From: Paracyclopina nana
Lineage: Eukaryota > Arthropoda > Copepoda > Cyclopoida > Cyclopettidae
Direction of reading: 5' to 3'
NCBI GenBank assembly: GCA_019096065.1
Contig: JAGUCH010000001.1
Span: 3,720,001 to 3,784,000 of the forward strand
Length of the DNA: 64,000 bases
A program made the position numbers and the translations under genes. Of this stretch, positions 1,395-59,354 are shown piece by piece. Each line of letters begins with the position of its first letter. Within the stretch, counting starts at the first letter, position 1. Below the pieces are notes generated by a model. That model was not told where the DNA came from, did not search any database, and was given only the letters and a program-made list of their open reading frames with translations.

Positions 1395-2838
1395 ATGGCC
1401 ACGACATACTTAAGCGCCGCCGCCGCCGCTGCTGCCGCTGCCAACTACCATCACTACGATCAAGAAGCAGCCGTCGCCATGAACCTGGCCTCCAACCCGG
1501 GGGCCGCCGCGGGCTACTGCTCACCCCGCGAGGCCATGCACGAGATGAAGTACAACCCGCCCATTTCCAGCAACTCGAGCACCCCGACGCCCGTTTCCGC
1601 GGCCTCGGCCGTATCGGCCTCAGCCCTCCACAACGGCCTGCCCCTGGCCCACAACCCCTGGGGGCTGCCCACACACGACCCCTGGGCCATGCACCACCAT
1701 GCCGGCCTCTACTCCTCCTCCGCAGCCTCGGCTGACCTCAAACCGCAGGACATAAAGCCGCACAGTCCGGGTGACTTTTCCAGCGTGCGCCAGCAGATGG
1801 CCGTGCCCTGGCAGCACCCTCCGGTGTCCTCTCCGTACCTCTCGATGCCCCAGTCGGCCAGCACCCCGGGGGCGCCCCCACTCGCACCCAACTCGCCGTC
1901 GCCCCACCACCCTTACGGTCTGAACGGCGTGATGCCACCTCACCACTACGTAGACCGCTACAGTCGGGAAAGTCACAATTCCAGTCCGCGGAGTGGGACC
2001 GACGAGGACCCCATGCAACCCAGCTCAGGTACTATTCCAAATCTACCTAGTATGAGAATCTGTAGCTGCGCGAGCTTCCGGCGGCCTCGCAGTGACATTA
2101 ACCTTATCCGCATAATAAGATCCAGCAGACGCTTGCTTTTCAGATGACTTGGAGTCGTTCGCGAAGCAGTTCAAGCAGCGGCGCATCAAGTTGGGCTTCA
2201 CGCAGGCCGACGTCGGCCTCGCCCTGGGGACGCTGTACGGCAACGTGTTCTCGCAGACGACAATCTGCCGCTTCGAGGCCCTCCAGCTGAGCTTCAAGAA
2301 CATGTGCAAGCTGATGCCTCTGCTGAAAAAGTGGCTGGCGGAGGCCGACTCGACGACTGGCACGTCGGCCTCCATAGACAAGATCGCCGCCCAGGGCCGC
2401 AAGCGCAAGAAAAGGACCTCCATCGAGGTCAGTATCAAAGGCGCACTTGAACAGCATTTCAATAAGAACCCAAAGCCCTCCGCACAGGAGATCACGAGCC
2501 TGGCCGACAGCCTCCAGTTGGAGAAGGAGGTGGTTCGGGTGTGGTTCTGCAATCGGAGGCAGAAGGAGAAGCGGATGACGCCGCCCAACTGCGGCTCCGA
2601 GTACCCTGGCTCAGGGCTCGACGACCAAAGCAATTCCGGGCCAGGCTCGGGCGGCCTCTACGACCAGCCCCCGCAGCAGCCCTCGCACCACGAAATCCCC
2701 CCTCACATGCAGCACATGGGACAGTGCAGCCCTCTCCATCCCCACCACCAACCTCAGCACAGCCCGCCCATGATGTCGCCCTCTCAGCACATGGTCCAAC
2801 AGCCGCCGCCGCCACACATGGGCGGCCAGGGACACTGA
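1395..2838 (+). CDS. vvl: class III POU-homeodomain transcription factor (ventral veins lacking / drifter type)
   Basis: Sequence-specific nuclear transcription factor of the POU3 class. In arthropods the vvl/drifter member acts in tracheal, neural and endocrine development. Two exons, 1395-2028 and 2144-2838, are joined by a 115-bp GT-AG intron (donor 2029, acceptor AG at 2142-2143). The junction makes Asp212, just before the POU-specific domain, and the short form is 442 aa. The N-terminus ([11 protein letters not shown]) is the family start, followed by Ala-, His-, Ser- and Pro-rich sequence. The POU-specific domain is about residues 208-281, with the motif [18 protein letters not shown] short linker precedes the homeodomain at about 297-356, whose recognition helix reads [13 protein letters not shown]. 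The tail is rich in His, Pro and Gln and ends MGGQGH. Reading through the intron meets a stop, so splicing is required. Codon use is strongly GC-rich against the AT-rich surroundings. The TGA at 2836-2838 may be leaky (see the next entry). Confidence 0.95.
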
Positions 2839-3288
2839 CGGTTAGCCGAGGCCGCTGCCGCAGCAGCCTCCACCACCAATGCCCGCCTCGAAAGCACGCC
2901 CTCGCCGTCGGCCTCGTCCGCGGCCTCGGGCCGACCGCCCCCCTCGCCGGGGGGATCCTCCGAGGCCGGTGGAGGCATCAACAATAGTGCGACCAGCAAT
3001 GGCGGCGTGACCTCGACTAACTACAACCCAATTTCGTCTAGCTGCTGTGATTTCAAAAATTGGACAAATTCTACTAGCTGTGATTACTCCTCCGGAGGTC
3101 ACCAGGGGGCGGTGACTTCAATGACCTCAATGGCAGCCTCGGCGGCCGCAGCTGAGAGCCTCTACTATAGTGCATCCAATTACTACGGTAACAACAACCT
3201 ATTGTTGCTGGCAGCCTCCAGCTCGGCGGCGGCCGCAAAGTGGGCGGCCTCCAATCACCACCACGGACCTCACGGGGGCCCCAGATAA
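2839..3288 (+). CDS. vvl: in-frame C-terminal extension of the POU protein (candidate stop-codon readthrough)
   Basis: After TGA (2836-2838) the same frame stays open for 149 codons and closes with TAA at 3286-3288. The decoded sequence looks like genuine transcription-factor tail: Ala runs, Ser/Pro/Gly-rich stretches, then Asn/Tyr-rich blocks such as TSTNYNPISSSCCDFKNW, and a His-rich end. Codon choice (GCC, TCG, GGC) matches the body of the gene. The stop context is UGA-CGG, a known leaky type, and a hairpin can form at 2848-2870. Readthrough of the drifter/vvl stop has been reported in Drosophila, so a conserved mechanism is plausible. The long form would be 592 aa. Alternatives are selenocysteine insertion, an unseen splice that removes the TGA, a single-base assembly error, or a recent nonsense mutation. 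Confidence 0.68.
   Translation, partial: RLAEAAAAAASTTNARLESTPSPSASSAASGRPPPSPGGSSEAGGGINNSATSNGGVTSTNYNPISSSCCDFKNWTNSTSCDYSSGGHQGAVTSMTSMAASAAAAESLYYSASNYYGNNNLLLLAASSSAAAAKWAASNHHHGPHGGPR
2848..2870 (+). promoter_or_regulatory. possible readthrough-stimulating RNA hairpin
   Basis: Nine bases after the TGA, GAGGC (2848-2852) can pair with GCCTC (2866-2870) and GCTG (2854-2857) with CAGC (2861-2864). This leaves one mismatch and a 3-nt loop. The spacing suits stem-loops that stimulate readthrough of UGA-C stops. GC-rich coding DNA often forms hairpins by chance, so this is supportive but not decisive. Confidence 0.4.
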
Positions 3289-3306
3289 CTGAATGTGTAC
3301 AGTGTG

Positions 3307-3480
3307 TACTACTACTACTACTACTACTCGTCGTCGTCGTCTACGTGTCGCCTGTCGATTTAGAACTACTTTACAAAGAAGCCAAATTTTGGATCATGAA
3401 GAAGAAGAAACCCACTCCAAGTTCCTCGTGTATCAACTATAATTATTACTATTATTATTATCATTACTATTGCCACCAAA
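3307..3480 (+). repeat. trinucleotide microsatellites in the POU gene 3' UTR
   Basis: A run of TAC triplets (about 3307-3329) passes into TCG triplets, and a TAT/ATT-rich triplet stretch lies near 3438-3472. Both fall in the 3' untranslated region after the TAA at 3288. Confidence 0.8.
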
Positions 3481-3671
3481 TTCATCCGGGAAAAAAGAAG
3501 AGTTTTTGATTTTCCACCCTATCACCACAACAACAAACGACAACATCAACCTTTAGCAAGAAATTTTAACTGTTTAGCAAACGTTAGCGCAGTCATCTGC
3601 TGCTGATCTTTATTATTAATTAATTATATGATCATCGTGTAATCTATCATCAGCCCTACCCAAACATCAGA

Positions 3672-3677
3672 AATAAA
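3672..3677 (+). other. polyadenylation signal of the POU gene
   Basis: AATAAA lies 384 bases past the TAA at 3288 and 834 bases past the TGA at 2838. It is the first good signal downstream and would define a 3' UTR of about 0.4 kb for the long form. Confidence 0.5.
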
Positions 3678-6600
3678 CTAGAAATCTGTACAAAAAAAGG
3701 GTATTACTAAGATTGTCTTCCATGGTAATCAACCCAATCATGGTCAGTGATGATGGGATGCATAATTTACGAGGTAATTGCTCCCTGCATCACAAAATAA
3801 TTCCATTTGCGTAGCCAGCTCATGATGGCAAATTAGCTAGTTTACTTATTGCTATCCACTCAGGTTGTATATGGAAAAGACCTTTGCAGCTAGCTAGCTC
3901 TCCAGCTACGAAGATCTGATCACCTATTACGACATGGTAACAGTCCACAACATGCTCATTGTCACGTAAGTTTTCGATTGTATCTCTTACTACAAACTCT
4001 GCTCTATTCACCCTCGTAACTGATTGAATAATAAGTGAAAAAGAAAAGGTACTACTGATTTTCTTGCAGATCGGACATGCCTCCCTAACGATTTGGAAGC
4101 TGTAACTGTCGAGGATTTTTTGGGGGGCAAAACGCAAGCTACATATTAACCATTACTTAATTGATCTGTTTAGCGAGGATGACACAAAAAAGGTCACTAC
4201 TCATAATAATTCACCAAGCTCCAGCAAAATGACGTCAAGCTACAAAAAGCCAACTGCAGCACAAAAACCCACCCAAAAGTGGAATTAAAGCGCGAAGTAA
4301 AGAGGTAACCCTGAAAATCAAAATCTTTTCAACTAAGCTCTAACTGTTTTTGTTGGCATACACACCCTGTTGCCCTATGTACATATAGTAAGTACGGGCA
4401 AATTCAGCTAAGCTGCAGCCCTAATACCGTGGGCGCTAGCCTGCATATACTACTGCGTCTAGGCTGCAACAGCGTGGCAAAGTTCCATCTTTTTAGGTTT
4501 GGCATTCGAACCTATTAGAATTGACTCCTTTTGCGATCCATTTGATTGCTTCCAAATGATGACACTGAGCCATGCACATGTGGTTATATGCTGCAGCAGC
4601 GGTGCGCCAAAGTAGTAAAAGGGGTTATGAGACGAGTTGCAGAAGAAGGTTTGGGTTGACAGTTCTTCCAAGATTCAAACCTTGAAAAAGAGGATCATCA
4701 TGGGCACAAAAAAGGCAAGCAACGAAGCCGGGAGAGAGAGAGTTACATAGTAGTAGTCTTAGTAGTATAATAGGAGAGCTAGCTATAGCTAGCTAACTTA
4801 ACTGCAGGAGTGGCCCGAGAAACGTGCCGGAATCCAACTTGGGCAGATCTGATCCACAGCAAACTCCACAGCAGCAGAACACATTCAAAAATCTCACACA
4901 CAGAGAGAACCCAAGTCAGTATTGTACAGGAAAAAAGAATACCAACACCCTAGGATAAGAAGTCATGTTGCCAATTGGCAATTTTGACAAGGAAGCATGA
5001 GCAACTGACGGCCAAATGTGGGCCATCAAGGGAAATTAGGTAACTTTTTTGCAACCTGGAATTTTTCATTCATTCGGCTGGGTCTCTTTTTTGGGATGTA
5101 TATGGAAATGCATCCCTAATTTATGCCTTTGCACTCACTCAGCAGTCACCGCTCAAAAAAGGTTTAAAATTTCCGCCTGCTCGAGTAGCGCAGACGAGGA
5201 TCAACAGTTGTCAAGAGAGAAAAAACCTGATTTCAGCACCTGCTCCAATTTTCTTGTGGGCAAATTTTCCTGCATCCACCTCGATTAAAATTCAAAACTA
5301 AACCAGTGAGAGGATGATATCAACCGAGAGCTCAGCGCGCTACTGTTTTGACAAGGAGCATTGGAATTTGAGACGGGTGCCTAAGGTTATTCCAACGGAA
5401 TGTTTGACACGAGAAAGTATTTGAGGGTCTCGTCGTGGTTAGTGGCACTTTTGTGAATTATGGACTTCGCTTCAGATCACCAACCACTTGGTCCTCCGAG
5501 TTGGTATAATTAATTTATGCTCAAGGTTATGCCAACAGAGCGCAACTACTTGAAATATTTGGCTTGCCAAAATAGCTCTTTGCTTTGATTTTCGCTGCTG
5601 CTGCTGTTATTGTAAGCGCGAGAGTTGAGAGTGCTTTCACTCCAAATAGTGAAGCCTGAGAAAATTTCAAGCCAACAGCTTCCAAAAGCAGATTAGATTA
5701 ATTTTTCTCAGTGTGACCATAGACCAAAGCAGATGGGGGTATAAAGATCTGAAAGGGTTGGCTTCGGGTTGCATTTTTTTAGCACCACCACCTGCCCCCT
5801 TGGGGCGTTGTCACCATTTTTTCAATAGGGATCCAAACCCTGGGAGTCGGAGAAAATGGCAATAAAACACTACTGACTGAGGGGAATGAGAGCATTTTTT
5901 ATGCTGCCATGGGGAACATTTCTAAACAGTACATGCGAGCTAAGCTGCTTTTGTGCTTGGCCAGCGAAGCCATCACACCGGAACCAAAGCCTAAGCTCTA
6001 TATATGAAGTTCATACGCACTAGTATTTCGGTATCCAGTGCACTGTGTGGGAATCCGAAATGGAAGCACACTATTTATGCCATCACTCATTCAGCTGCAG
6101 AAAACTTGAGATCATATCTTGGCTTGGATGCATGAACGTGGAAGAATCTTATGGATGTGATTTTGGTCAAGCTCAAAGTTTTGGTGGTTGGGCAGGAGGA
6201 AAATATGCTGCGCTTTTCCCACCGTGCTCGTATCACTTCTGCATTGATATCATGAGCTAAGGGGTTTGCTTGCATCTGCTCAAAATGTGGATCGACTGTT
6301 GCTTTGCTTGGGAAAGAATCCGAAATTACAGGGTGTCCTCATCATGCTGAGCGAGCTGGATTACAATCAAATATGGGAGGATTTAAAACCGCAAAAAAAG
6401 TGATCAGTCCAAATTCCACGAGCAACAGCAGCTTTTCAGTCTAATGAGGCAGCAACTACTAAATAATGAAGCTGCTCATTTTACACTGATGATCGACAGC
6501 AGCCAAGCACATGTCAAAATCAAAATAGATGGCTCAATTTGAATCAGAAAGGGGGCGAAAAAATGCATGTAATAGTTATCATCTTTCATTGATTAAAAAG

Positions 6601-18090: not shown

Positions 18091-18169
18091 ATTGTGGGGA
18101 TTTGTTGAGGTAATTAAATGATTGGCTATTTATGGCTCCTCCTTAATATCTATAGCTTTTCTTATTGGT

Positions 18170-18295
18170 ACAAAAGCACACTTTTTATTGGGACAAAAGC
18201 ACACTTTTTATTGGGACAAAAGCACACTTTTTATTGGGACAAAAGCACTCTTTCTATTGGGAGAAAAGCCCTCTTTCTATTGGGACAAAAATGCA
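18170..18295. repeat. about 22-bp minisatellite (5 copies)
   Basis: Tandem copies of AAAGCACACTTTTTATTGGG followed by AC. The last two copies are altered (CTCTTTCTATTGGGA). The unit contains the TATTGGGAC motif found across the surrounding element. Confidence 0.85.
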
Positions 18296-18330
18296 CAGTT
18301 CAGTGATATTCAGCTCCTTTAAGCTTGTTT

Positions 18331-18540
18331 GCCCAAAGTCTACTGGCCCAAAGTCTACTGGCCCAAAGTCTACTGGCCCAAAGTCTACTGGCCCAAAGTC
18401 TACTGGCCCAAAGTCTACTGGCCCAAAGTCTACTGGCCCAAAGTCTACTGGCACCAAAGTCTACTGGCCCAAAGTCTACTGGCCCAAAGTCTACTGGCCC
18501 AAAGTCTACTGGCCCAAAGCCTACTGGCCACTGGCCCAAA
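18331..18540. repeat. 15-bp minisatellite (about 14 copies)
   Basis: Tandem CCCAAAGTCTACTGG, first eight perfect copies, then a CACC interruption, then further copies decaying at the right end. It yields spurious repeat proteins in several frames. I see no sign that it is coding. Confidence 0.93.
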
Positions 18541-18944
18541 GTGTTAATTTTTGTCACAATAGTGCATGTTCATTTCAGTCCCAATAGCATTTCATAATGT
18601 TGGTCTCAATAGTGCATGTGGATTGATGTCCCACTAACAATTTGCACATTTTGGTCCCAATAGTGCATGTTCATATATGTCCCAATAGCAATTTGCACAT
18701 TTTTGTCCCAACAGTGCATGTGGATTGATGTCCCAATAGCAATTTGCACATGCTCATGTCCCAATAAAACATGAAAAAAATGAAGGCCTTGGATTTTTAT
18801 GAAATTTGGCCCAGAGGGGCCTGAAGGCCTATATTTTATGAAAAAAATTTAAAAAGTTGAAATTTCTAGGCCTAAGGGCCTTAAAATTGATCGTGTTCAT
18901 TCGGGTCCCAATAGCCCGGGTGTGCAATTCTATGTCCCAGTAAC

Positions 18945-39100: not shown

Positions 39101-42100
39101 AGATACTCCAAGCTATAACATCTTTTGGTCCGAGATGAACGGATTAGCCAAGATTGCCCACATTCTGAAGCAAGTGTTGATCTTCCTCCTTTTGCCGCTC
39201 GTTGTGATGGCCTCGACCATCAGCCGCAGCTTCGAGGGCTGTTTCCCCTGCAACTATCTCATCAAGCAGAGCCAAATTCCAGTCAACCGATTTCTTTACT
39301 GGGAAATGTCCAAATTAGTATTCTACGGTATTGTCATGTGTACGCTCGTAGACGACTCTGACGTGGTGTGGTATGACATGATTACCGTATTTTGGATAGC
39401 CGCATACCTTTTGGAAAACCTCAGAACCATCCACAGGTATATTAGTGCAACTAGCTTCATTGCAAATTGCTTCTTTAAGCTATTTCAACTTTTTCGTGCA
39501 AACATTTAACAGACTGATTTTTTTGGCCAGGGCTTCGTTTGATACATCGATTCGGGTTTGATTTTTCAATTTTGGGCCCAAACCCCTTGTCACCATGTGG
39601 TTTGATGGGGTTTCAAGTTTGGCGGCCCCCAGGATGCTCTAAGGGGGTCAAATGGGGCCTGGTCTTATCAGCTGATTGAAACAAGGCAAATCTTTGCGGG
39701 GGCGTGGCTGGAGGAGTGGAGGGCAGCCAAAATCAACTATGCCCCAATTCTTGAGGCCCCTGGGGGGTGTCCAGATGTCAGGGGAAAAAAGTTGGAAAAA
39801 GTCCTCGTCAAGGCCAAAAAAAGCCAAAATTTGCGTTTTTGGACCCGACTTTGAGGCTGATTATCTCCAAAGGCCACGGATGGATTTTGGATTTTTTTGC
39901 TCCAAATGGCAGATAAAGATCCAAATTAGTACCAAGAAAAAATTTGGGAGGGTGTTATTCCTCGTTTGTCCGCTACGAGCTCTCAAAGTTGGACAAAATT
40001 CACTTTTTCACAGTAGTAACAAAATGGCTACTTTTCTTCTGTCAAAAATTCTCGATTGGTCACAGTGGCCAAGTTGATGGCTGGAGTGTGGGCCATTTGG
40101 TCTGGAGGACACCTCTAGGGTCTCAGTGGTTGGTATCAGGTCCAACTTCCTTGGTAGGGCTAGGCCAGGCCCAGCCAGGAGCCTTGGAGCCGAGCCATCG
40201 CGACGGCCATTTCGATTCAGTGGCAATTCCAAGGGCCTTGCTGCCAATTCTGGGGACAGATTGTTGACCATTTGGCCTTGATCACTCCTTTAGGGTCCCA
40301 ACAGATGATTTCAAGGCTAACAGTCAAGGTACAGCAAGGCCAGCTTGATCCAGGGGGCTTGGAGTTCACTTGTGGCATTGGTGATTTGGCTACAGAAAGT
40401 CTTCGAGGGTCTCGATGGCCAAGTTCTCGGATCAAGTGAGGATTTTTTGAGCTGTATCACTCCTTTGACATCCCAAGAGATGATTTCAGGTTCAACTTTG
40501 ATGGTGATCATCAGCTGACTGCTTCCAGGGCTACCAGAGCTTATTTGCCAACTCAGCTGCCAATGGTTCAATGAAAGGCAGCATGGATCACATCCAAGAC
40601 CAAGGCTGGAGAGTGGATTTTTTAGGCTGAATCAACTCAAATGGAAGCAAGGAGATGAAAGACAGTCTATTTTTCATGGTGTTATGCTCCCTTCTTCAAC
40701 CAGGAGTGCCAAAGCTTCATGGGAACAAAAGTCGAAAATGGCTTCAATAAAGAGCTCCATTGATTGCAGCCAAGACGAGCGATGACAAGTCACTTTTTTG
40801 CTCCAGCTCAGCTCAGGGGGTGCCAAAGAGAATTTAGAAGGTGTAAACTGTCAGGTGTTGTGCACCTTTCATGGTTCTGGATGCGCAAAACTTTCATGTG
40901 ATAGCCAGAGCTCAAATAATAACAACTGCTACTCACGGATGAAAAAGGCTCGTGCTCGACAAATCGCGGATTGAACTTGACTTTTTTGGTCCAGCTCACC
41001 TCCATTGGTGCCAAAGAGGCTGTGGAATGTGAAAAATTTCGGGTGTTCTCCATATTTCATGATTCTGGACTGGGCAAAGTTTTATGGAGTGACAGCCACT
41101 ATTATGCTAAGTGCTACTACTCGCGGATGAAAATGGGCTCGCGCACAGCAAATCGCGGATTGAACTTGACTTTTTTGGTCCAGCTCAACTCCATTGGTGC
41201 CAAAGAGGCTGTGGAATGTGAAAAATTTCGGGTGTTCTCCATATTTCATGATTCTGGACTGGGCAAAGTTTTATGGAGTGATGGCCACTATTATACTCCT
41301 ATAATAATAAATATACTGCATACTCGCAAACGGAAAACGCCTTGCGCTAAAAAATTCACGGATGGAACTCGACTTTTTTGGCCTGGATCACCTCAGTGGG
41401 GGCCAAAGAGAATTTAGAAGGTGTAAAATTTCAGGTGTGCGCGAGCCCATTTTCATCCGCGAGTAGTAGCACTTAGCATAATAGTGGCTGTCACTCCATA
41501 AAACTTTGCCCAGTCCAGAATCATGAAATATGGAGAACACCTGAAATTTTTCACCTTCTACAGCCTCTTTGGCACCAATGGAGTTGAGCTGGACAAAAAA
41601 AGTCAAGTTCAATCCGCGATTTACCGCGCGCGAGCCCATTTTCATCCGCGAGTAGCAGCATATAGTATAATAGTGGCCATCACTCCATAAAACTTTGCCC
41701 AGTCCAGAATCATGAAATATGGAGAACACCCGAAATTTTTCACATTCCACAGCCTCTTTGGCACCAATGGAGGTGAGCTGGACCAAAAAAGTCAAGTTCA
41801 ATCCGCGATTTGTCGAGCACGAGCCTTTTTCATCCGTGAGTAGCAGTTGTTATTATTTGAGCTCTGGCTATCACATGAAAGTTTTGCGCATCCAGAACCA
41901 TGAAAGGTGCACAACACCTGACAGTTTACACCTTCTAAATTCTCTTTGGCACCCCCTGAGCTGAGCTGGAGCAAAAAAGTGACTTGTCATCGCTCGTCTT
42001 GGCTGCAATCAATGGAGCTCTTTATTGAAGCCATTTTCGACTTTTGTTCCCATGAAGCTTTGGCACTCCTGGTTGAAGAAGGGAGCATAACACCATGAAA

Positions 42101-45100
42101 AATAGACTGTCTTTCATCTCCTTGCTTCCATTTGAGTTGATTCAGCCTAAAAAATCCACTCTCCAGCCTTGGTCTTGGATGTGATCCATGCTGCCTTTCA
42201 TTGAACCATTGGCAGCTGAGTTGGCAAATAAGCTCTGGTAGCCCTGGAAGCAGTCAGCTGATGATCACCATCAAAGTTGAACCTGAAATCATCTCTTGGG
42301 ATGTCAAAGGAGTGATACAGCTCAAAAAATCCTCACTTGATCCGAGAACTTGGCCATCGAGACCCTCGAAGACTTTCTGTAGCCAAATCACCAATGCCAC
42401 AAGTGAACTCCAAGCCCCCTGGATCAAGCTGGCCTTGCTGTACCTTGACTGTTAGCCTTGAAATCATCTGTTGGGACCCTAAAGGAGTGATCAAGGCCAA
42501 ATGGTCAACAATCTGTCCCCAGAATTGGCAGCAAGGCCCTTGGAATTGCCACTGAATCGAAATGGCCGTCGCGATGGCTCGGCTCCAAGGCTCCTGGCTG
42601 GGCCTGGCCTAGCCCTACCAAGGAAGTTGGACCTGATACCAACCACTGAGACCCTAGAGGTGTCCTCCAGACCAAATGGCCCACACTCCAGCCATCAACT
42701 TGGCCACTGTGACCAATCGAGAATTTTTGACAGAAGAAAAGTAGCCATTTTGTTACTACTGTGAAAAAGTGAATTTTGTCCAACTTTGAGAGCTCGTAGC
42801 GGACAAACGAGGAATAACACCCTCCCAAATTTTTTCTTGGTACTAATTTGGATCTTTATCTGCCATTTGGAGCAAAAAAATCCAAAATCCATCCGTGGCC
42901 TTTGGAGATAATCAGCCTCAAAGTCGGGTCCAAAAACGCAAATTTTGGCTTTTTTTGGCCTTGACGAGGACTTTTTCCAACTTTTTTCCCCTGACATCTG
43001 GACACCCCCCAGGGGCCTCAAGAATTGGGGCATAGTTGATTTTGGCTGCCCTCCACTCCTCCAGCCACGCCCCCGCAAAGATTTGCCTTGTTTCAATCAG
43101 CTGATAAGACCAGGCCCCATTTGACCCCCTTAGAGCATCCTGGGGGCCGCCAAACTTGAAACCCCATCAAACCACATGGTGACAAGGGGTTTGGGCCCAA
43201 AATTGAAAAATCAAACCCGAATCGATGTATCAAACGAAGCCCTGGCCAAAAAAATCAGTCTGTTAAGGCATCGTTGAAATGCAGCTCTCGTTAGACTAGG
43301 GACAGCAATCTTTTAACACGAGATGAAAGCCGAAATTGAGAAGGCCAAGCTTGAAAAGTCATTTCTCGCAACAAGTTTTTCAATGTACATAACCTCAAAC
43401 TTATTTGAAATGGAAGCCATACGTACACATCAGGGCTTAAAACGAACGAAAAGTTCCGCAATTCCATATTTATAGAAGCTATCTAGTGCAAGCGAGCTGT
43501 CGGCTTTTCATATTTGCTAAATTTAGTTTTTTTCCCCGACAGGCTCTACCGATTCTCAGGAGAGAAAACTGTGAAGCGGATTTTCAAACGGTGGTTCACC
43601 TTTCGCAACTTGTACATTCTCTCCACTGATGTCGTGTTTTTGGTTGCGTTCATCCTGAGATGCGTGGGCTACTTCAACGACCAGTGCCGCCAAAATTGCC
43701 CTTATGAGGGCAACGAAATCGCTTTTATAGCGGGAGCAATGTGGAGCTTTGCAGCCTTGTTGGCCTTTTTGAGGTCCATCCAGGGTGGTCTCATGTGGCG
43801 GCAAACAGGGCCAATCATTATTAGCATGAGCTACATGATGTTGGACGTCATGGTTTTCCTCTTCATCTTTGTGATCGTGTACATCTCGTTCACGCTCAGC
43901 ATGGTTCACGTCTACAACGTCTACTCCATGGATCGCACCGAGCACTTTAATACCCACAGAATGGCCTTCAAGCTCTTCTTCTGGGCTCTCATAAGGACGG
44001 GAAACCCGCAATTTGCAGGTGATTATTTGAAAATGCACTTTCTGCCATCTACCATAAAGTACCATAAGTGCACTTGACAAACGTGCCTTTAATGATGATC
44101 AAAGGAAAGCAGACTAATTGCCAAATGTTTCAGATATCCGAGTTTTCAATGCCAGCCAAACTTTCAATAAGACTTGTTTGTCATCGGTTATCGATTCCGG
44201 AGAACTCATCGGTTCCTCCGAGGTGAAAAAATGTGCACTGGGCAATAGCGAAACGGCCATCGAGGAGGGAATTCCCTACATTGCGGGCAACACACTATGG
44301 GCTTTTTACCAGTTCACTGTATTCATTGTGTTGCTTTCCATTTTGAGGGCCAGAATGGTCAACACCTACCATCGAATTTTCAAGGAGGCCGATGTCCAAT
44401 GGAAGTTTTTCAGGTACTCCAAGCCAGAGTGAAAGCTGTCCATATAAAGTTGGGTTGACAGCAGTTAATTATGTGCCTAAATGAGTATTCAGACTATACT
44501 TAATGAGGCTTTTCTTACGCTGCAGGGCCAGCATATGGTGGAAGTACTTAGATGGTGAAAGCGTTTTGCCACCACCATTCACCATTTTCTATTTGGCTCA
44601 CAAATTGCTCCAACTCATCTACGGAAAAATAGCTGAGGTTGTCGTGACGAGAACTGCAAAATTCCGCCACGGATCATCTGCTGACATTGAGTCGCCAACG
44701 TTAAGAAAGCGACGGGAAATTGAGCTTAAGCTAGCTGCTGACAAGCGACTTTTCGAAAAAAGATATACCCAGCTGATGCTCATGCTCACTAACGCACCCG
44801 AAAAGGACAAACTCGCTGTGAGCTGACGAAAGGAAATGGAGGACCCGAATTTCACAAATTGGGACTCGTTTCTCGATTTGGACGAAAAACCTCCCCTACT
44901 TGGCAGAAAACCATAACAGATAAAATCACCACTCTCTTTACATACCTTCCTCACCTATATCGCTAACATTCGCACCATTTTACAAAAAATCTTAATATTA
45001 CATTAATGACTGGAGATGATATACGAAACTAATGGCTATTAAATCTATAATATACAACTTTGGCATCATTTCTATAAAGCGCAACGATAGCGTTGGCTTC

Positions 45101-56938: not shown

Positions 56939-59354
56939 ATGAAGCAGCTCATATTTGGAATCCATTGTTTTCTGGCCGAAACCTCATTGCACGGCTTCAA
57001 ATACTTGACGTATCAAAATGGCGTCATATTCAAGATTCTTTGGGTAATAATCCATGGCAAAATAAAATAAATAATCAGCACATCACCTGTTCCAGGCATT
57101 GGTTCTGATTGCTGGATTTTTAACAGCTAGTAAAATGATATCAGATTCTTTTGCTGAATGGGAAAAGAATCCTGTGATAACCAGCTTGGACAGCATTGAT
57201 AGCCCTTTGAACGACATTCAATTTCCCTCAATAACCGTTTGCCATGAACAAGAATACCAAATGGATAATTGGGCAATTCCAGAGCTTGTTCTCAACTACA
57301 TAGATTTTTCCAGCTGCCAGCAGAAAAAGTGCCCCTTCAACCTAAACCCCGAAGAAATTGCTTTAATGCTAATAAGCCACATAGAAAAAATGATTGAGAA
57401 GACTGTTTCAAAAAATGACAAGAAGCTGGATTTAATTGGATTTGCTTTTGAGGAAGTGCAATCAGCAATTTTATCTAACGCAACAAGCATTGAAAAATTG
57501 AAAGAACTCGTGGCTGAAAACATAGGTTACATTCATGCCGGCAATTTCATCAAGTCTTTGAATTTCTCCAGTAAGGAGAGCCTTGTTTGCAAGAATAATT
57601 GCACAGAACTGAAAACAAAAATTGAAAATATTCTGATCCTGGTGGAAGCTATGATCCTAAGAAAAATGGCGGACGGATTCGGAAGTTTTCTTAGGCTGAT
57701 GTCACCACTTTTGGGACTAACTTTTGACATTGACACTTTAATGGGAGTAACATCAAGCAGAAAACTGGAACTCTGTTCTAAGATGACACCATTTGAAAGA
57801 AACTTTCATGACCTACTAACTAAAGTTTCAGTTGCTTATGGATTGAAAAATGTATCCATTTATGATTTGCCAAGCTTTTACAAAATTCTCCCGCATAAGT
57901 TCGAAAATCCTGAACCGAGAAACACATACCCTTTGTTCAGCATTTGTAACTCTGGATTTCAAGAGGCTACTTTACCCTCATGTCCTCCCATTTGGAAGGA
58001 CTTTTTTGCAACTCACAACATCTCTCAAAACCCTTACAATTCGAGGAAAGGAGAGTTTTGCGGGGGGAAAACTCCCGATATTACTGGCAATAATCTAACA
58101 GCAATCATGGAAGTTATGAAGTTTGCTTACCACATGGCCTCATTGGATGATTACAAAGACCTGCATAAAAAAATGGCATCCATAGTTCAAACAAATTTAG
58201 GAAACTCAGCTGCAATATTTGATTCAAGGTGGTACATGGATAGATTTGGACGAAAGTTTACGTCGCTGGATGATCCGGATTTCACAGAAATTTTTCAGCC
58301 AGCAATCACCAACAAGGGGCTTTGTTATGCATGGAATCATGAAAACATTTTCGACATATTTCAAGATTTGCCATATTTGGATTCATTCAAAAGGGCATTC
58401 AACATCGGAAATGGTCCAAACAAAGTTGCCAGTGCAGCTATGAAATCAATATCAATTGTTTTAGACAAGAATGAGCATTACCTAACAGATCGACATAAAG
58501 CTGAAAAGGGCTTCTTGCTAGGCATTAATTCTGGCCAATCTTACTTTGACATGATGTCCAACCCTACGCTAATTCAAAGGGGCTACAAGACCATTATCAC
58601 TGTAAAACCTTTGTCAGTTGTGTCAGATGCCAACACGGAATCTTTGTCTGTGGTTCAACGAAAATGTAGATTTGAAAATGAGGTTCCGGAGAATATGACC
58701 TTTTTCAAAAAATACTCAATTGCAAGCTGCAAATTTGACTGCATGCTTAAATATAGCACTCAGCAATGCCTGTGCATTCCATGGAGCTTTCCGAGGCCGA
58801 ACAATGATACAATACCAATATGTGACAGTGCTGGTAACTTTTGCTTTCATTCAAAGATGAACAATTATTCTTATCAAGGGGACTCGTGCTTTTGTCTGCC
58901 AAGCTGCAACTCAATTAAATTCTCCTACGTAGAAAAGCCAATTCTCATCAACTTAAAAAGCCATTGTTTTGCATCATCTCCTGGATATTTGCGAACTTTA
59001 AGGAAATATGACTACACCAGACAGAATAGCGTAATATTGAGCTCGTATTCAAATGCGTATAAAAATGGTACACCTACTGATTGGAATGATTTATTCGGAA
59101 ACATCCCTTTTGTCAACATATGCGAGCACCTATACTCTAAAGATATTGCAATTGTCCAGATACTAATTGAAGGACAGTCGTACATGAAAATGAGGCAGTC
59201 ATTAAAAGTTACTTTCACTGACAAGCTTGGCACAATTGGAGGAACGCTAGGATTCCTCACAGGTTTTTCAGTCATGGCCTTGGTGGAGATAGTATATTGG
59301 TCATTCATGCTGGTCAAACGAATGAAAGGAAATACTGGCGGAATGATTAAGTAA
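56939..59354 (+). CDS. DEG/ENaC family sodium channel subunit (pickpocket-like)
   Basis: Amiloride-type sodium channel subunit in the plasma membrane; arthropod members serve taste, touch and fluid transport. Two exons, about 56939-57043 and 57096-59354, give about 787 aa, with a roughly 52-bp intron (edges good to one or two bases). The cytoplasmic start has the family motif AETSLHGFKYL, and TM1 covers about 28-50. A large extracellular loop carries the Cys-rich core, with CKFDC, CLCIPWSFPRP and CFCLPSCNSIKFSY. TM2, about 750-775, is led by GTIGGTLGFLTGFSVMALVE. The usual Gly-X-Ser filter reads Gly-Phe-Ser, where Gly-Ala-Ser or Gly-Ser-Ser is typical. The loop is longer than in many relatives; much of residues 90-330 has no Cys pattern I recognise. 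The ligand or stimulus cannot be told. Confidence 0.93.

Follow-up and report, generated by a model that had tools for sequence, protein, structure and literature searches.

The POU gene at the left end of the window (the whole 64-kb stretch of DNA analyzed, C1:3720001-3784000 in an assembly of 92 Mb and 10 contigs) raises the question of whether its TGA codon always ends the protein or whether some ribosomes pass it and translate the open frame that follows. The gene is of POU class III (vvl/drifter-like) and has two coding exons and one intron. As the first-pass annotation had claimed and the coordinates confirm, a single TGA splits the POU protein from an extension in the same frame that ends in TAA. 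The product up to this TGA is 442 aa long, and the long form made by readthrough would be 592 aa. The gene is laid out as follows.

1395 to 2028, + strand: coding exon 1, with the presumed start codon at the first in-frame ATG
2029 to 2143, + strand: GT-AG intron of 115 nt (generic splice matrix: donor 0.65, acceptor 2.51, sum 3.16)
2144 to 2835, + strand: coding exon 2, with the POU-specific domain, the homeodomain, and the short-form tail (Pfam Pou 9.3e-37, Homeodomain 1.5e-20)
2836 to 2838, + strand: first stop, TGA, the candidate for a leaky stop
2839 to 3285, + strand: extension of 149 codons that continues the POU frame (open frame and codon tests)
3286 to 3288, + strand: second stop, TAA, at which the long form would end
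3672 to 3677, + strand: possible poly(A) signal (pattern match only)

Among the POU classes, the POU domain and homeodomain are nearest to class 3. The closest solved structures were 7xrc_C ("POU domain protein") at 287.6 bits and 2xsd_C (POU class 3 factor 1) at 274.7 bits, compared to 200.1 bits for the best class 2 chain. The vvl/drifter name was given because of this class and because of the tail before the TGA, which we take to resemble the end of Drosophila Dfr-S. A POU search of the genome gave eight matches, read as five genes. Two POU genes at C8:1789979-1790256 (+) and C8:1800344-1800701 (-) have the same exon split and lie ∼10 kb apart in opposite orientation, arranged as after an inverted duplication. 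When exon 2 was used as the query, no related loci were found in the viral or genome contig collections searched. The sequence TATAAAAA was noticed by eye at positions 956 to 963 of the window, ∼430 nt 5′ of the presumed ATG.

Several other features of the window and the genome were recorded. Identical 133-codon ORFs lie in opposite orientation ∼3 kb apart at 39676-40077 (+) and 42695-43096 (-) of the window, and since 40923-41417 (+) and 41388-41849 (-) share more sequence, the ORF pair is part of a long inverted repeat. A single-exon ORF of 759 aa at 57075-59354 encodes an amiloride-sensitive sodium channel (DEG/ENaC; Pfam ASC E 3.3e-51), and an ORF at 18156-18587 carries a tandem repeat of the STGPK/KVYWP type. 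Many TTAGG repeats were seen at two of the five contig ends examined, the C2 start and the C1 end, and the opposite ends of these contigs, the C1 start (L043) and the C2 end (L047), carry arrays of a GGCCT-like five-base repeat. TTAGG ends are in keeping with an arthropod. COX1 had no match in the assembly, and neither did 7tm_6 odorant receptors or pacifastin, for which the control genomes were negative as well. The four homeobox matches on the small contig C10 (C10:79732-155660) pair with C6 matches of equal score (C6:6961780-7048266), so that C10 may represent an alternative haplotype or a copy left unmerged.

The coding tests on the extension were all made within this single genome. The frame was open over its 447 nt in 36 to 38 of 2,000 dinucleotide shuffles, and openness says little over the first ∼150 nt past the TGA because one more forward frame and one reverse frame are likewise open there. 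Both observations are in keeping with a frame that is open by chance in a GC-rich, untranslated 3′ UTR. The openness of the 149-codon frame is modest evidence; codon usage is stronger. A codon model was trained on the gene's first ORF (ORF1), and 2,000 dinucleotide shuffles served as the null. The score of the extension was reached by none of the shuffles (by 2 with a slightly different model using other smoothing), and when its halves were scored separately, the first was reached by 6 and the second by 8. Among the other forward frames of the extension, +1 was reached by all 2,000 shuffles and +2 by 202. The 447 nt past the TAA, used as a 3′ UTR control, were reached by 447 of 2,000, and the tail before the TGA, a positive control excluded from training, was reached by none, like the extension. 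Scores as high as that of the extension were found in 37 of 7,680 overlapping 447-nt segments from both strands of 20 sampled loci, and 31 of these 37 were open frames, most of which are probably exons. Under codon usage estimated genome-wide from 27 training ORFs, the extension was reached by 1 of 2,000 shuffles; one result that counts against it is that an antisense frame with nine stops scored slightly higher under this usage (-0.063 compared to -0.141).

The composition of the extension bears on two further claims of the first-pass annotation. The extension was said to have the gene's own codon bias, and the bias is indeed similar but not equal (GC3 of 0.68 compared to 0.83 in ORF1). It was also said to be rich in Ala, Ser, and His, which is right for Ala (19%) and Ser (20%) but not for His (3%); with 10% Gly, 9% Asn, and 1% Gln, it is in fact rich in Ala, Ser, Gly, and Asn. 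The 149 extra residues make up a low-complexity tail that is probably disordered. In 150-nt steps, the GC content goes from 0.73 to 0.51 inside the extension, is 0.61 in its final 150 nt, and is 0.42 and then 0.31 past the TAA, which means that the composition shifts near the second stop, not the first. A search of the genome found the extension once, with no second copy. An independent start for the extension was considered and rejected, as the only in-frame Met codons are codons 95 and 98.

Other homeobox genes of this genome provided a comparison. The control covered 18 loci (L001-L008 and L030-L039), nine of which, the POU gene included, could be scored; the remaining nine lacked either a motif match or a stop beyond it. 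At the eight other scored loci, the stop was followed by 7 to 41 open codons compared to 149 in the POU gene, and the GC content past the stop was 0.31 to 0.45 compared to 0.62. (The ORF at L039 stops 4 aa past the homeobox motif, perhaps inside an intron.) The short open stretches at these loci, the codon fit that is found only in frame, and the change in composition after the second stop all argue against an untranslated frame kept open by chance, which we consider highly improbable. Overall, the single-genome tests favor real coding past the TGA.

Long open frames past a stop are infrequent in the sampled sequence. Of the 341 ORFs of at least 100 codons found in 264 kb, only four, the POU gene included, are followed by at least 149 in-frame codons past the stop. 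Strong in-frame introns (scores of 9.77 and 9.35) account for two of the other three cases; the remaining one is in a repetitive stretch, with a best score of 2.71. At L011 on the minus strand, in a presumably copine-like gene named from its residues, a 60-nt intron with an in-frame stop (position 1307 of the reverse complement) mimics readthrough. Short introns such as this one are a trap for readthrough detection in this genome. Headcase, another gene known for readthrough, gave three matches in the genome, with its exons split.

As the two intron cases illustrate for splicing, some of the mRNAs could lose the TGA through alternative splicing or have it changed by RNA editing. Introns of the GT-AG type were scanned using a generic splice matrix. 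An in-frame pair over the TGA, 2428-3105, scored 2.08, not far below the 3.16 of the gene's real intron. However, the donor of this pair and those of the next two (2539 and 2530) lie inside the homeodomain, so that splicing at any of the top three pairs would destroy the DNA-binding domain, and among donors 3′ of the homeodomain, the best pair scored -5.38. A splice removing the TGA had been raised at first pass as a challenge to readthrough; the genomic scan with the generic matrix found no well-scoring GT-AG intron of this kind that spares the homeodomain. As for editing, the A of the UGA is preceded by G, and a G directly 5′ of the A is a poor context for ADAR. Splicing or editing as the source of a longer product is therefore very unlikely.

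The sequence that follows the TGA has two features that bear directly on readthrough.

2839 to 2844, + strand: CGGTTA, bases +4 to +9, starting with the CGG of type II readthrough signals (as defined in PMC11166343)
2848 to 2870, + strand: predicted hairpin of 23 nt, -12.9 kcal/mol, starting 9 nt past the stop (+13 to +35)

Type II signals, described for viruses in the available text of PMC11166343, consist of UGA CGG or UGA CUA, often with a stem-loop 6 to 12 nt downstream. The POU gene, with UGA CGG UUA, matches this layout, and its leakiness is predicted from the motif. In common with the viral signals, it has UGA CGG followed 9 nt later by a predicted hairpin; it differs from them in being an animal nuclear gene. 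The first-pass annotation had called a UGA followed by C leaky; the C is present, but as part of the specific UGA CGG motif, so that the context was understated, and the type II-like layout of motif and hairpin was missed altogether. The hairpin by itself is only borderline unusual. An equally good one was found at 33 of 592 in-frame positions when the spacing was 5 to 9 nt (23 at 7 to 9 nt, 47 at 4 to 10 nt, and 60 at 3 to 12 nt), and 351 of 2,000 synonymous resamplings had a hairpin as stable. Longer stretches around the stop fold no better than shuffles (z values of -0.59, 0.13, -0.39, and 0.17), and the +9 to +59 stretch that is critical in Drosophila ranks 522 of 2,121 here. A rank of 6 of 1,776 for the hairpin was set aside because the stretch had been picked after the hairpin was seen, and the wider spacing scan was preferred. 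The UGA CGG motif is taken as good evidence for readthrough, and the hairpin as suggestive.

The same context helps to weigh a recent nonsense mutation in the individual or an assembly mistake, with a normal protein of ∼592 aa. A same-frame extension that looks coding is what would be expected in that case. Yet a TGA arising by chance would fall in a random context, and CGG follows only 63 of the 11,954 TGA triplets in the sampled sequence (CGG or CTA follows 157). The presumed likeness of the tail before the TGA to the end of Dfr-S also argues against a mutation or mistake. So does the length of the short form, 442 aa, near the 427 aa given for Drosophila Dfr-S in the available text of PMC8417969. 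A mutation or an assembly mistake is hence an unlikely explanation. Decoding of the UGA as selenocysteine would suit the identity of the stop, but this reading was rejected because the scan of the 3′ UTR gave no SECIS match. Rfam families, SECIS included, gave nothing above threshold in the 64-kb window, and at E values up to 10, the 2836-4300 region gave only two unrelated weak matches. A selenoprotein is exceedingly improbable.

The first-pass annotation had stated that the drifter/vvl stop codon is read through in Drosophila, and the available text of PMC8417969 bears this out, with readthrough of dfr/vvl proven. According to the same text, ORF2 of dfr is conserved among Drosophila, Lucilia, and Glossina and poorly in mosquitoes, and in three non-dipteran insects, Tribolium, Rhodnius, and Heliconius, it is short, with no predicted readthrough. 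The result for these three insects counts against readthrough in the present gene and bears on the first-pass suggestion that the switch may be ancient in arthropods. According to the accessible part of PMC13170385, readthrough in Drosophila is driven by the stop codon, by the CAA UCA that follows it, and by a stem-loop spanning +9 to +59; shifting this stem-loop by 3 to 9 nt weakened readthrough, and replacing the UAG by UGA raised it. The gene studied here is like dfr in that it is of POU class III, has a short form of similar length (442 aa compared to 427 aa in PMC8417969), and has a same-frame low-complexity extension, a C after the stop, and a predicted hairpin close 3′ of the stop. It is unlike dfr in several respects. 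First, the stop context is UGA CGG UUA instead of UAG CAA UCA. Second, the extension is 149 aa long, compared to 286 aa with more His, Gln, and Pro in Drosophila. Third, the predicted structure is a 23-nt hairpin at +13 to +35 instead of a stem-loop at +9 to +59. Finally, the Drosophila gene is intronless, whereas this one has one intron. These differences of stop, signal, hairpin, composition, and intron fit deep ancestry with turnover of the parts or a separate origin.

Readthrough has been reported more widely in this part of the animal kingdom. In the available text of PMC5100048, abundant readthrough is described for most of the insects tested and for one crustacean, Daphnia pulex, but for no tested species outside Pancrustacea. 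The POU gene has coding-like sequence past the stop in common with these cases; the calls in PMC5100048 rest on many-genome alignments or annotation-wide tests, compared to one gene in one genome here. Among the open-licence PMC papers listed, no report of vvl readthrough was found outside flies and mosquitoes.

The best explanation, and a likely one, is programmed stop codon readthrough of the mRNA from this vvl/drifter-like POU class III gene: the frame past the stop looks coding, the stop has a type II context and a suitably spaced predicted hairpin, no good intron lies outside the homeodomain, and a proven counterpart exists in dfr. Most ribosomes would terminate at the UGA at 2836 and give the 442-aa short form, and some would decode it as an amino acid, aided by the 3′-adjacent CGG and perhaps by the hairpin 9 nt downstream, and give the 592-aa form with its 149-residue tail. 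The analogy with Drosophila Dfr-L suggests that the tail would alter transactivation and that the ratio of short to long form would be set by tissue and stage. The first-pass annotation had inferred that the long isoform is made. The open frame, its coding-like statistics, the stop context, the predicted hairpin, and the shortage of good competing introns can be read from the sequence; the occurrence of readthrough, its rate and regulation, and the function of the tail are inferred.

One tentative possibility is that vvl readthrough is an old device of the arthropods, maintained because selection favored having some long form, while its parts were replaced over time. The stop codon would be UGA in one lineage and UAG in another, stimulation would come from a type II CGG plus a short hairpin or from CAA plus a long stem-loop, and the tail would differ in sequence, so that leakiness and a disordered tail, and no sequence, would be what is conserved. 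If readthrough is real here, a gene model that stops at the TGA lacks 149 of the 592 residues of the long protein, or one-quarter. The developmental switch that is proven in Drosophila and has been proposed in Anopheles would then be present in a further arthropod, working with another stop codon and another signal, and the question of ancestral or repeated origin would become directly testable from the stop regions of vvl genes across arthropods.
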